A stretch of DNA of 40,882 nucleotides from an uncultured Oscillospiraceae bacterium. GTDB taxonomy: Bacteria > Bacillota > Clostridia > Oscillospirales > Acutalibacteraceae. Positions 13,383-19,657 of this stretch are shown here, in pieces (the first letter of the stretch is position 1; each line of letters starts with the position of its first letter). Below the pieces are notes generated by a model, which saw only the letters and a list, made by a program, of their open reading frames with translations, had not been told where the DNA came from and made no database searches. A program made the translations under genes and the position numbers. The DNA lies in assembly GCA_948471095.1 (NCBI GenBank), contig CAOKRG010000023.1, positions 1 through 40,882 on the forward strand, given 5' to 3'.

Positions 13383-13801
13383 TTATTGCTCCATGTGGGA
13401 GTAGGACGATTTCACCCGCAGCCGGTTCAGCGCTCGGGCCAGGGTGGCCTGGGCTACCCTGTGCTCCTGGCGGCTCCGCTGCTGCAGCAGGGCCTCCTTG
13501 GCCTCGTCGGCCTCCCGGCGGGCTCGGGCGGCGTCGATGTCCTCCGGCCTCTCCGCCGAATCCACCAGCACCAGGACCTCGTTCTGCTCCACCTTCACCA
13601 TGCCCGGGGAAACCGCCGCCAGGCGGCTTTCCTCCCCCGGCAGCCGGTAGCGCATGGTCCCCGGCTGGATGGCCGCGATCATGCTGCTGTGGTGGGCCAG
13701 AATGCAGTGCTCCCCATCGGAGGTGGGGATGGTCAGGCTCTCGCAGGGGCCCTCGTAAAAGGTGTGGTCCGCCGCCAAGATGTGCACCTGAAAGGTCTCC
13801 A

Positions 13802-13802
<1 letters not shown>
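13383..13802 (-). CDS. atpC: ATP synthase F1 epsilon subunit
   Basis: A 139-residue epsilon subunit of the central stalk, which couples rotation to catalysis and inhibits ATP hydrolysis. The N-terminal beta-sandwich is recognisable (FQVHILAADHTFYEG, TIPTSDGEHCILAHH, VLVDSAERPEDID). The C-terminal helix-turn-helix runs through AARARREADEAKEALL. The ATG overlaps the atpD stop (TGATG), so translation is coupled. Last gene of the operon. Confidence 0.95.
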
Positions 13803-16110
<2,308 letters not shown>

Positions 16111-16111
16111 C

Positions 16112-17872
16112 TCAGCCACCACGCTTTCTCTGCTTTAAGAAGTCCTCCCGGTACTTCTGGGAGAGGGCCACAATCTCCTCCCGGTCCTCTTGCGAGAGCT
16201 GGCCGGTCTGGTCCACCCGGCGGCACAGGTCCGGGGCCTGGTCCTCCACATAGGCGGTAAGCCCCGCCCGGAAGCGGTCCATCTCCCCAAGGGGGACGTC
16301 CTGCATGGCATGGGCCATGGCTGCGGCCAGAATGACCACCTGCTGATGGTGGGCGAAGGGCGCGTACTGGGGCTGGCGCAGCAGGCGCATCAGCCCCTGG
16401 CCATAGCTGAGCTGCCGCTTGGTGGCGTCGTCCAGGTCGCTGGAAAACTGGGTGAAAACCTCCATCTCCCGGTACTGGGCCAGCTCCAGGCGGATGGCCC
16501 CGGCGGCGGCCTTCATGGCCTTGGTCTGGGCATCGCCGCCCACGCGGGAAACGGACAGGCCCACGTTCACCGCGGGCCGCTGGCCGGAGAAGAACAGGTC
16601 GCTCTCCAGGAAGATCTGGCCGTCCGTGATGGAGATGATGTTGGTGGGGATGTAGGCGGACACGTCCCCCGCCTGGGTCTCCACAATGGGCAGGGCCGTC
16701 ATGCTGCCGCCGCCCCGCTCCTCGGAAAGGTGCGCCGCCCGCTCCAGCAGCCGGGAGTGCAGGTAGAACACATCGCCGGGGTAGGCCTCACGGCCCGGGG
16801 AGCGCTCCAAGAGCAGGCTCAGGGCCCGGTAGGCGATGGCGTGCTTGGAGAGGTCGTCGTACACAATGAGCACGTCCCGGCCCTGATACATAAAGTATTC
16901 GGCCAGGGCGCAGCCCGCATAAGGGGCGATGTACTGCAAAGCCGCCGAGGCCCCCGCCGGGGCGCTGACCACGCAGGTGTAGTCCATGGCCCCCCGGCGG
17001 CGCAGGTTCTCCACCATCTGGGCCACAGAGCTGGACTTCTGCCCAATGGCCACGTAGACGCACACCACTTTCTTTCCCTTCTGGTTCAAAATAGTGTCCA
17101 GGGCAATGGCGGTCTTGCCGGTCTGCCGGTCGCCGATGATCAGCTCCCGCTGGCCCCGGCCAATGGGGAACATGGAGTCGATGGTCAAAAGTCCGGTCTC
17201 CATGGGGGTGTTCACGGGCTGGCGGTCCAAAATGCCCGGAGCGGGAGCCTCGATGGGCCTGTGGGTCTCCGCCTCGATGTGGCCCTTGCCGTCCACGGGG
17301 ATGCCCAGGGCGTCCACCACCCGGCCCAAAAAGCCCTCGCCCACCCGCATGGCGGCAGTCTTCATGGTGCGGCGCACCGGGCTGCCCGCCGTGATCTCCT
17401 CGCTGTCGCCGAAGAGGATGCAGCTCAGGTCGTCCCGGCGCAGGTCCTGGACCATGCCCTTCACGCCGGAGGAGAACACCAGAATCTCCCCATACTGGGC
17501 GTGGGTCAGCCCGCCTACCGTGGCGATCTCGTTGTCCACGGTGAGCACCTGGCCGAACTCCTCCGGAGACACGGCGGGGTTCCAGTCGTCCACGGCCTGG
17601 CGCATCAGGGGGATGATGTCCTCCTGCCCGGGCCGCAGCTGGCGCAGGTAGTCCTGGAACTGGCGCATCCGGCCGTGGAGGGTCCAGTCGTACACATCGG
17701 ACCCCACCTGCATCTGGAAGCCCTCCTTAATGGAAGGGTCTTTCTCCCAGGCCAGGGGGACCTCCCGCTGGTAGGTTTGGGTCAAAAACTGGGAGAAGCG
17801 CTCGTACTGCTCCGCGCTGGGCTCTTTGGCGCTGTGCAGCACCGCGTTCAGGCGCCCCCTATCGGACCTCAT
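16112..17872 (-). CDS. atpA: ATP synthase F1 alpha subunit with fused C-terminal delta domain
   Basis: A 586-residue protein, about 80 longer than a normal alpha. Residues about 8-80 match the C-terminal domain of subunit delta, with LSAEQ-like SAEQYERFSQFL, the DPS...GF strand (DPSIKEGFQMQVG) and VYDWTLHGRMRQF in place of the usual V-I-D-G-S-x-x-G-x-L. From about residue 82 it is a complete alpha: Walker A GDRQTGKT at 247-254, GRGQRELI before it, and the normal C terminus. No atpH exists; this sits exactly where atpH and atpA would be. The ATG has GGAGGCGGAG and overlaps atpF by 14 bases. An internal ATG at 17605 with AGGAGG 14 bases ahead could give unfused alpha. Confidence 0.92.
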   Translation of the reverse strand: MRSDRGRLNAVLHSAKEPSAEQYERFSQFLTQTYQREVPLAWEKDPSIKEGFQMQVGSDVYDWTLHGRMRQFQDYLRQLRPGQEDIIPLMRQAVDDWNPAVSPEEFGQVLTVDNEIATVGGLTHAQYGEILVFSSGVKGMVQDLRRDDLSCILFGDSEEITAGSPVRRTMKTAAMRVGEGFLGRVVDALGIPVDGKGHIEAETHRPIEAPAPGILDRQPVNTPMETGLLTIDSMFPIGRGQRELIIGDRQTGKTAIALDTILNQKGKKVVCVYVAIGQKSSSVAQMVENLRRRGAMDYTCVVSAPAGASAALQYIAPYAGCALAEYFMYQGRDVLIVYDDLSKHAIAYRALSLLLERSPGREAYPGDVFYLHSRLLERAAHLSEERGGGSMTALPIVETQAGDVSAYIPTNIISITDGQIFLESDLFFSGQRPAVNVGLSVSRVGGDAQTKAMKAAAGAIRLELAQYREMEVFTQFSSDLDDATKRQLSYGQGLMRLLRQPQYAPFAHHQQVVILAAAMAHAMQDVPLGEMDRFRAGLTAYVEDQAPDLCRRVDQTGQLSQEDREEIVALSQKYREDFLKQRKRGG

Positions 17873-18356
17873 GCGCTCCGCCTCCCTCCGCCAGGTTCAA
17901 AAACTGGTCGAAGGGGTCCTCGTCCGGCCGGAAGGCGATTTTCTCCGCCGCCTCTGTGGCCAGCTTCTTCAGCTCCCGCTGCGACTCCTTCATGGCCTGC
18001 TCCTTGGCATGCTCGGCCTGGGCCCGGGCCTGGGCCACGATCTGCTTGGCCTGCTTCTGGGCCTGGGCCAGCTGCTCCTCGGCGGACTGCTGCACCGCCA
18101 GCTGGGCCTTCTGCCGGGCCGCGTGGATCTCTTCCCCGGCCTGGTCCAGCTTCTGCTGGTAGCTCTCTTGGATGCGCTCCGCCTCCTGGAGCTTTCCCGC
18201 GGCCTGCTCTTCCATTTCGCGGTAATGGGCCTCCCGCTTTTCCATAAACTGCTTGACCGGCTTGAACAGGAGGAAATAGAGTCCGCCGGTGAGAATGGCC
18301 AGGTTCAGCCAATGCAGCAGAATCTGCTGCCAGTCAATATTCAAAGGGATCTGCAC
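17859..18356 (-). CDS. atpF: ATP synthase F0 subunit b
   Basis: A 165-residue peripheral stalk subunit. An N-terminal membrane helix (about residues 9-30, LHWLNLAILTGGLYFLLF) is followed by the conserved FKPVKQFMEKRE and a long charged, Ala/Gln-rich coiled coil of the stator. Length is typical, and there is no delta fusion here, unlike mycobacterial b-delta. The start is a GTG with AAGGAG upstream. The C terminus should contact the delta domain, which here is part of the alpha protein encoded by the overlapping next gene. Confidence 0.92.
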   Translation of the reverse strand: MQIPLNIDWQQILLHWLNLAILTGGLYFLLFKPVKQFMEKREAHYREMEEQAAGKLQEAERIQESYQQKLDQAGEEIHAARQKAQLAVQQSAEEQLAQAQKQAKQIVAQARAQAEHAKEQAMKESQRELKKLATEAAEKIAFRPDEDPFDQFLNLAEGGGAHEVR

Positions 18357-18412: not shown

Positions 18413-18772
18413 TTAAAGCACGAAGATGATCAGAATGACGACCAAAAGGGCGTAGATGATGGCGGTCTCGATAAAGACCAGGCCCAGCATCAGGGAGGTG
18501 CGGATCTTTCCCTCCGCCTCGGGCTGGCGGGAGATGCCCTCCGCCGACTTAGCGGTAGCCAAGCCCATGCCTACCGCGCCGCCCGCGGCGGCAAGTCCTA
18601 CGGCAATGCCGGCTGCAACGGCCTTGAGGCCCAGGCTGTTATCCGCCTGAGCGGCCTCGGGGGCAGGCGCGCCCTCCGAGGCGGCCAGGGCGGGCGCCGC
18701 CAGGGCGAAGGCCACGAAGAGAGCCAGGGTCAGGGCAAAAATCAACTTCATGCGGCGGGATTTTTTATTCAT
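18413..18772 (-). CDS. atpE: ATP synthase F0 subunit c with N-terminal signal-like extension
   Basis: The rotor ring proteolipid, 119 residues instead of about 75-85. The two hairpin helices lie at about 50-75 (AAGIAVGLAAAGGAVGMGL) and 93-118, joined by the polar loop ISRQPEAEGKI. The ion-binding carboxylate is Glu102 in FIETAIIYALL. Before the hairpin is an extra segment with a basic start, a hydrophobic run and PALAAS, which looks like a cleavable signal peptide, then an Ala/Pro/Glu-rich spacer. Thr103 next to Glu102 and Tyr107 resemble sodium-binding rings, but the helix-1 Gln position is Met69. Ion specificity therefore stays open. Confidence 0.93.
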   Translation of the reverse strand: MNKKSRRMKLIFALTLALFVAFALAAPALAASEGAPAPEAAQADNSLGLKAVAAGIAVGLAAAGGAVGMGLATAKSAEGISRQPEAEGKIRTSLMLGLVFIETAIIYALLVVILIIFVL

Positions 18773-18835: not shown

Positions 18836-19657
18836 TCAGCCCTTTTCCGGTTTGGCCTTTTCCTTGTGCTCCTGCTCGGAGACCTCCCCGTAATAGAGGG
18901 CGGTGAGCATGGTGAGCACGTAGGTCTGAATGATGGCGTGGAGCAGCGTGAACAGAACGCCCACCACCACCGGCAGAATGAAGCTCAGGTTGACAAAGTA
19001 ATAGACCAGCTCCGTGACCAGCAGGCCGCTGAGCAGCGCGCCAAACAGGCGGAAGCTCATGGAGATGGGCAGGGAGAATTCCTTCAGCGCCTTGCCAATG
19101 CCCTTTACGCCGTTTCCGGCAATGCCGCCGGAGAGGATGACCAGATAGGACAGCACCCCCAGGCCGATGGCCGCGTTCACGTCGGAGAGGGGCGCGGGCA
19201 GAGTAATGGGGTGGCCCCCGATGGTGACGGCCTGCAGGCCCAGCAGCTCAAAGAGCGTACCCACAAAGATGTAGGCCCCGGCCATAAAGATGTAGGCCCC
19301 CAAAAAACCGTTGCGGTGGGGGCTGTTGGTTTTGGCCATGTTGTCGAACAGGCCCACCACGGTTTCCAGCGCCAGCTGGAACTTTCCCGGCGCCAGGCGG
19401 AACTTGGGAATGACAAAGATTCGGAGCAGCAAAGCGGCCAGCAAAAGGACCGCCGTGACAAGGAACGCGGAGACCAAGCCGGGGTTGACCGCCTTTCCTC
19501 CGAGGAACTGAATTTGGTTGACATTGTGCAGCACCGCGTCCCGCATGGCCTCTTGGACGGTTTCCGTCCGGCCGTGATACCCGGCAAAAATGGAACCGGC
19601 CAGCAGAAGGGCCACGACCGCCAGCCACAACGCCAAACCCTTTTTGTGTTGCTTCAT
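18836..19657 (-). CDS. atpB: ATP synthase F0 subunit a
   Basis: A 273-residue membrane subunit that forms the ion half-channels. The essential Arg is Arg203 in SMSFRLFGALLSG, and the last helix contains LLHAIIQTYVLTMLTALY. Preceding helices include FRLAPGKFQLALETVVG and AGAYIFVGTLFELLGL. The ATG at 19657 with AAGGAAG is preferred; an in-frame extension to 19933 would cross the promoter. It is the first gene of the operon, and no atpI is present upstream. Confidence 0.95.
   Translation of the reverse strand: MKQHKKGLALWLAVVALLLAGSIFAGYHGRTETVQEAMRDAVLHNVNQIQFLGGKAVNPGLVSAFLVTAVLLLAALLLRIFVIPKFRLAPGKFQLALETVVGLFDNMAKTNSPHRNGFLGAYIFMAGAYIFVGTLFELLGLQAVTIGGHPITLPAPLSDVNAAIGLGVLSYLVILSGGIAGNGVKGIGKALKEFSLPISMSFRLFGALLSGLLVTELVYYFVNLSFILPVVVGVLFTLLHAIIQTYVLTMLTALYYGEVSEQEHKEKAKPEKG

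Follow-up and report, generated by a model that had tools for sequence, protein, structure and literature searches.

The window, by which we mean the whole stretch of DNA analysed (40,882 nucleotides, contig CAOKRG010000023.1 of assembly GCA_948471095.1, from an uncultured Oscillospiraceae bacterium related to common gut Clostridia), carries an F0F1 operon in which the genes for a, c and b and those for gamma, beta and epsilon flank a single gene joining part of subunit delta to subunit alpha (Table 1). A sequence-only reading of this locus had proposed that the C-terminal half of delta stands before a complete alpha, that the N-terminal helical domain of delta is missing, that the gene lies between atpF and atpG and that there is no separate atpH. 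It had called for a profile search of the N-terminal residues against the OSCP/delta family, a genome-wide search for another atpH and a survey of related genomes for the same fusion.

The order of Pfam domains in the gene product is PF00213 (residues 2-75), PF02874, PF00006 and PF00306. When the whole protein was searched, its match to PF00213 (OSCP) spanned profile positions 97-171 of 172 (E=1.7e-8; 35.2 bits, with the cut-off at 22.3), and residues 1-85 searched alone matched positions 97-172 of 172 (E=4.1e-10; 40.5 bits, cut-off 22.3), which assigns them to the C-terminal, b-binding domain of delta/OSCP. NCBIfam delta models also matched this N-terminal piece (best E=3.9e-10). None reached its cut-off, which is set for the whole protein and would not be expected to be reached by one half of it. 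Profile positions 1-96, and with them the N-terminal helical domain that sits on the threefold axis, were unmatched in the fusion. The alpha part is complete (TIGR00962, atpA, 5-500 of 503, E=4e-214) and, standing inside an F0F1 operon, belongs to the F-type ATP synthases as F1 alpha. These results confirm for the window what had been read from the letters: the C-domain of delta is fused to alpha, and its N-domain is missing.

The adjoining genes are those for b and gamma, as had also been proposed, and atpF overlaps the start of the fusion gene by 14 bases. The operon holds one a gene and one b gene, the latter encoding a separate protein of 165 residues. The c subunit has about 40 extra N-terminal residues resembling a signal peptide (judged by eye) and a tail, and the a subunit has an extra hydrophobic stretch at its N terminus.

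Table 1. Positions of the fusion gene, its parts and the neighbouring ATP synthase genes in the window.
Feature	Position	Strand	Remarks
delta-C/alpha fusion gene	16112..17872	-	586 codons/aa, ATG start
delta C-terminal domain (b-binding half), residues 2-76, carries Trp64	17645..17869	-	PF00213 97-172/172, E=4.1e-10
short linker, residues 79-85	17618..17638	-	low pLDDT and conserved spacing
alpha subunit proper, N-terminal helix (residues 86-96) to end	16115..17617	-	
b subunit (atpF)	17859..18356	-	PF00430 E=9.3e-15; C terminus ...DQFLNLAEGGGAHEVR
c subunit	18413..18772	-	PF00137 matches 53-115 of 119
a subunit	18836..19657	-	PF00119 E=1.2e-18; start at ATG of MKQHKKG inferred
gamma subunit	15211..16122	-	PF00231 E=1.5e-84
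beta subunit	13802..15214	-	PF00006 E=2.7e-72
epsilon subunit	13383..13802	-	PF02823 E=3.6e-21, PF00401 E=2.2e-9

An AlphaFold2 model of the single chain gave the delta domain the elements E10-14, H20-34, E40-44, E52-56, E59-62 and H65-78, with block means of 84-93 across residues 11-70. At the linker pLDDT fell below 50 (residues 82-84; block mean 58 at 81-90), and other weak stretches were 401-410 and 415-443. The engineered fusion 9jc1, described below, was not among the 50 rows listed in a structure comparison that barely tested the delta part.

Search for a second delta

The genome of the window (2.5 Mb, 83 contigs) is 86.6% complete, and within it the only OSCP match at E≤0.001 is the fusion. 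No second delta was thus found, in agreement with the proposed absence of a separate atpH; the search returned neither a full-length atpH elsewhere nor a failure of the N-terminal residues to match delta.

OSCP was detected in 24 of the 29 genomes of the genus (own included), with one match each and several genomes listed at 99% complete. In six of these delta is separate and full-length, 16 have the delta-C/alpha fusion (G162 is cut by a contig end, and G150 was judged without locus dissection) and two have the triple fusion described below (G170, G171). The remaining five genomes also lack alpha at E≤1e-100. In the six canonical FoF1 operons of the genus (G153, G154, G163, G164, G166, G176), delta is separate and full-length and alpha has its normal length; gene order is like that of the window in the four that were dissected (G154, G163, G164, G176).

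Reading frame and translation start

Among the loci fetched from other genomes (see Distribution), we counted 105 distinct delta-C/alpha protein strings, and exactly 35 residues separate two invariant residues flanking the join in 48 of 60 aligned proteins. The number of strings and the constant spacing rule out a chance open frame. Estimates of dN/dS were about 0.43 for the delta domain, 0.70 for the linker, 0.51 for the alpha N-terminal helix and 0.23 for the rest of alpha; they come from 579 pairs with dS of about 0.8-1.1 and are a rough sign of selection only. When the join was searched reading through stops, the canonical neighbours among those listed carried at least one stop.

The window comes from an assembly of 83 contigs and 87% completeness, and one MAG locus of this kind (L110) does look misassembled, which would be the grounds for suspecting an assembly or annotation artefact. 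We give this suspicion virtually no credence, because the fusion is present in single-contig genomes (G152, G567, G811), also occurs in records without a MAG label and was read in 105 distinct strings, i.e. in independent assemblies.

We also considered that the gene might yield two products, internal initiation near the alpha start or proteolysis providing an excess of free alpha, so that one delta-alpha and two alphas would assemble in normal stoichiometry. The alpha N-terminal helix contains Met in 52 of the 105 fusions, and in the window AGGAGG stands 14 bases before it. A lenient scan of the join region (ATG/GTG/TTG, Shine-Dalgarno of at least five bases) found a candidate start in 51/105 (50/93 in another set), in 15/105 at or before the helix. 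However, 36 of these 51 candidates come after the helix, which a product starting there would lack; the helix Met is lacking in 53 of 105 fusions (I, L, V, F, or pattern not found), and only 7 of the 52 Met codons have a Shine-Dalgarno of at least four bases at a spacing of 4-12. A Shine-Dalgarno of at least four bases accompanies a candidate start before the delta domain in 95/105 fusions and, by the same measure, a start of separate alphas in 37/46, both counts being generous in that they take the best of all candidate start codons. Start-codon scans revealed no conserved internal start across the 105 fusions. An internal start may occur in single species; as a general explanation, two products appear to us rather improbable.

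Architectures between b and gamma

Dissection of the loci revealed five architectures between b and gamma. Type A has a separate full delta and alpha. Type B has a free delta C-domain (six loci; five of the frames have 73-106 residues and the sixth has 157). Type C is the delta-C/alpha fusion of the window. In type D (13 loci) the whole delta, N-domain included, is fused to alpha. Type E is one chain of about 735-780 residues, consisting of an N-terminal hydrophobic helix with a b-like strand, the delta C-domain and alpha, and stands beside a separate b gene. The counts were 117 C, 40 A, 13 D, 6 B, 4 E (including L110) and 1 with none; some genomes are counted twice, as L081-L160 overlap unnamed loci.

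For the triple fusion of type E, Pfam searches of four loci (one cut by a contig end) found the OSCP and alpha domains in all four and ATP-synt_B above the cut-off in two and below it in two. A type E profile was stop-free in 8 of 225 genomes of the order, from three further families; with G070, G148, G170 and G171 this makes 12 genomes in four families. A separate b was present in all 11 dissected loci (L044, L045, L066, L067, L220-L226), and the best hydrophobic window started at residue 3 in 10 of them, L225 being read from a later Met. The C-terminal end of b binds delta; judged by eye, an F-L motif found at the C terminus of type C b subunits is missing from the separate b in L044 and L066. 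Each alpha of type E would so carry its own membrane helix and a b-like stalk strand. We found no report of a triple fusion in the literature searched, whose coverage mostly leaves out subscription papers and bioRxiv.

Some loci showed further peculiarities. In the ATPase operon of L110, from a Lawsonibacter MAG, b and c are unrecognisable and the alpha frame extends upstream to 797 residues; this is probably a misassembly, and L110 was dropped from the triple fusions. At L064:6527-8881 (+), a whole-delta/alpha fusion of 785 residues has a second partial delta match (N-domain) in front, and two adjacent c subunit genes lie in one ATPase operon at L064:5443-6013 (+) and in L193. A single open frame of 797-802 residues encodes both gamma and beta at L070:915-3305 (-), L182:7563-9953 (+) and L183:8091-10496 (+), in three genomes of one clade (G088, G668, G790), with beta keeping an ATG preceded by a purine-rich run; the whole gamma-beta join was stop-free only in G668 among 226 class genomes. 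A covalent link between rotor and stator of this kind should block rotation.

Distribution

In the family, OSCP was found in 46 and alpha in 45 of 150 genomes, and a survey of the order found OSCP in 205 of 394 (these survey rows are excluded from the architecture counts). A profile of the join matched 54 of 391 class genomes at E≤1e-12. The whole join was free of stops in 29 of the 391 (own included), which belong to 14 families; 21 of these frames have at most 650 residues and eight at least 670. We dissected 22 of the 29, including four of the eight long frames, and these four hold more of delta or the whole of it. G629 (L184) was listed with one TAA, but this is the stop codon that directly precedes its open frame and at which the match starts. 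G629 is thus a further fusion, with which the class count would reach 30/391. From a phylum sample of 398 genomes, G996 and G1186 were confirmed outside the class, and G1105, with a frame of 246 residues, is not in the confirmed set.

When the join profile was run against named genomes, at least 166 relatives matched. The best 80 were analysed, and all 80 have delta-C and alpha in one frame; this is no frequency, because a search profile built on the join favours fusions. The titles of carriers include Flintibacter muris, Acutalibacter, Neglectibacter, Colidextribacter, Lawsonibacter, Oscillibacter, Faecalibacterium, Anaeromassilibacillus, Lachnospiraceae and Mogibacterium records. Carriers not labelled MAG include Flintibacter muris DSM 110149, Acutalibacter sp. 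1XD8-33 and 1XD8-36, Neglectibacter sp. X58, and Faecalibacterium sp. An121 and An122. The survey of relatives that the sequence-only reading had called for therefore recovered the same fusion in 105 distinct strings and in 29/391 class genomes, and newly shows that it is frequent in gut Clostridia.

Phylogeny and linked changes

We built an unrooted tree of the alpha core from 63 sequences (LG+C20, ultrafast bootstrap; sets thinned at 93% identity), leaving out L074, which has no delta. Type C needs five changes on this tree, at least four of them forced by well-supported branches, and formed a single group in 0 of 200 bootstrap trees. Type D needs seven changes, and type E is one clade (100/100). 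A quick tree of 135 sequences gave the same counts for C, D and E but placed the E clade differently. Among the type C loci, L069 has the long a and c of the main group, yet its alpha falls among the whole-delta fusions (98/99), and we regard a separate origin of L069 as doubtful. L191 joins a long branch (94/89), and the branches of L196 and L197 are long. Because L069 is doubtful and two other C lines are long-branched, we claim only that the delta-C/alpha fusion probably arose at least three times.

The group of the window (18 rows, 96/93) is nested in a series of D branches, so the simplest order on this unrooted tree would be that in the window lineage the whole delta was fused first and its N-domain was lost later.

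Two further subunits differ in length with the architecture, counted in frames not cut by a locus end. An N-terminal extension of c was found in 102/110 type C loci and in none of type A (0/39), B (0/6), D (0/13) or E (0/3); that of a was found in 103/108 type C loci and in none of A (0/16), B (0/4), D (0/13) or E (0/3). The C loci without extension are L186, L187, L191, L196, L197 and L211, and L175 and L184 are intermediate for c. Within the delta domain, position 64 is Trp in 73 of 74 thinned main-group fusions and in 0 of 32 separate deltas; elsewhere it is Trp in 4/7 other type C and 5/12 type D sequences. Lengthened a and c and a near-invariant Trp of the delta domain thus mark the clade of the window, an added finding of this study.

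Discussion

Ueno et al. 2025 (PMC12229609) state that the ATP synthases known to date all contain just one a subunit, and argue that the delta N-domain, placed on the threefold axis, limits FoF1 to one stalk. Deletion of this domain and fusion of the rest of delta to alpha led to up to three stalks and a subunits in their engineered enzyme: a was up 2.2-fold and b 1.8-fold, about two stalks on average, and H+/ATP was 5.8 in the fused enzyme versus 3.0. The engineered enzyme and its wild type are both without the epsilon C-domain; the fusion is the change between them. Three-stalk particles were very rare in cryo-EM, for which the authors blame stalk loss during preparation, and ATP-driven pumping by the fused enzyme was slower and lower than in the wild type.

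By analogy with that enzyme, we think it fairly probable that the window encodes a natural multi-stalk F-ATPase with a high ion-per-ATP ratio. Delta is reduced to its b-binding domain and joined to alpha; being fused to each alpha, it would give each of the three a docking site for a b dimer. Loss of the N-domain would lift the one-stalk limit on the threefold axis, so that the enzyme could accommodate two or more peripheral stalks, every one with an a subunit of its own; the number of ions moved per ATP would be two to three times as high. In fermenting gut Clostridia, such an enzyme might allow ATP synthesis driven by a small ion gradient, or pumping against such a gradient. Since the genome of the window also encodes RnfC and a V-type ATPase A subunit, a small-gradient synthase beside another ATPase is a plausible role. 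The fusion, the missing N-domain, the single delta match, the constant spacing and the end-to-end match to 9jc1 speak for several stalks; the rarity of three-stalk particles and the lower pumping of the engineered enzyme (PMC12229609) speak against them. Three delta domains and a changed stator, as the sequence-only reading expected, hold for the engineered equivalent; for the natural enzyme, how many stalks and a subunits it has, at what ion ratio it works and what it does for the cell are our inferences.

The same parts could instead form a single-stalk enzyme in which one of three delta domains binds the b dimer, because just one a fits or b is limiting, and the fusion merely tethers delta and saves a gene. 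The operon has one a and one b gene, and type D keeps its N-domain while fused, so fusion alone is no proof of several stalks; in the 13 whole-delta loci, three N-domains presumably cannot all fit on the axis. Against a single stalk, the engineered version, in which the fusion is the change, has about two stalks on average (a 2.2-fold, b 1.8-fold), the enzyme of the window has lost the domain proposed to set the limit (PMC12229609), and its triple-fusion relatives would have a membrane helix and b-like strand on each alpha. We consider a single stalk unlikely, while granting it real weight, and keep to the multi-stalk enzyme as our explanation.

Taking all architectures jointly, we tentatively suggest, at somewhat less than even confidence, that multi-stalk F-ATPases are a widespread natural class in gut Clostridia, reached repeatedly by three routes and working at about 7-10 ions per ATP. 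In the lineage of the window the whole delta would have been fused to alpha and lost its N-domain later; another lineage would have lost the N-domain with delta free; and in the third a membrane-anchored b-like strand, delta-C and alpha would form one chain with three stalk strands built in. Two or three a subunits and about ten c (an assumed ring size) would give the 7-10 ions per ATP by the formula of PMC12229609, above the measured values quoted there for natural F-ATPases. Low-gear multi-stalk motors may thus already exist in nature.

Under the rule stated in PMC12229609, a single a subunit makes c-ring size the fixed price of ATP. Should the fused enzymes hold several stalks, gut bacteria would provide natural exceptions to this rule, and with them a way in which small gradients could serve some of these bacteria for ATP synthesis. 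Because carriers include records not labelled MAG, the stalk number could be counted directly. The triple fusion offers a second, stricter test, since one stalk is difficult to reconcile with a membrane helix on each alpha.

Mycobacteria likewise have delta covalently fused to a neighbour, as a b-delta protein with one copy per enzyme. Chain d of 7jg5 matches the delta domain of the window (E=0.0036), and a b-delta fusion is also reported for Gordonia (PMC5709465). In mycobacteria, however, delta is fused to b and alpha is separate, whereas the enzyme of the window has a separate b of 165 residues and its delta domain on alpha, and hence is not of this type. N-ATPases are without delta (PMC5706428) and differ in gene order (PMC5709465). 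The C-terminal piece of their b family TIGR03321 (178-242 of 246) matches the delta domain of the window (E=4e-5), so that the delta-like piece is on b there and on alpha here. An N-ATPase was ruled out, as alpha of the window scores 621.8 bits versus a cut-off of 750.5 for TIGR03324 and b matches TIGR03321 over the first 131 of 246 positions only, without an OSCP match.

The enzyme of the window has the anatomy of a delta-deltaN-alpha FoF1, with delta-C before alpha, no N-domain and no separate delta found. In the engineered Bacillus PS3 enzyme (PMC12229609; PDB 9jc1), a short linker connects delta residues 105-178 with the N terminus of alpha. Residues 8-564 of the window protein align to 4-564 of 9jc1 chain I (9jc1_I) in one stretch; the natural chain has 586 residues versus 580, and its join is three residues shorter. 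The two differ in that the epsilon C-domain was removed too in the engineered enzyme, and a and c of the window have longer N-terminal parts than their counterparts in types A, B and D. The Discussion of PMC12229609 further describes a natural delta-alpha fusion in Acidaminococcus fermentans with the N-domain missing, predicts a multi-stalk enzyme and names UniProt G4Q3K6 and A0A1I2C5T3. By that description its architecture would be that of the window; the species belongs to the Negativicutes, another class.

The sequence-only reading had given the mycobacterial fusion with b as the known delta fusion. A delta-alpha fusion, engineered and natural, was reported in 2025 by PMC12229609, the only such report in the literature searched (subscription papers and bioRxiv were mostly outside its coverage). 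The basic arrangement is therefore already on record; our analysis adds to it the commonness in gut Clostridia, the probable repeated origin, the linked changes in a, c and Trp64 and the triple fusion with its predicted membrane anchor.
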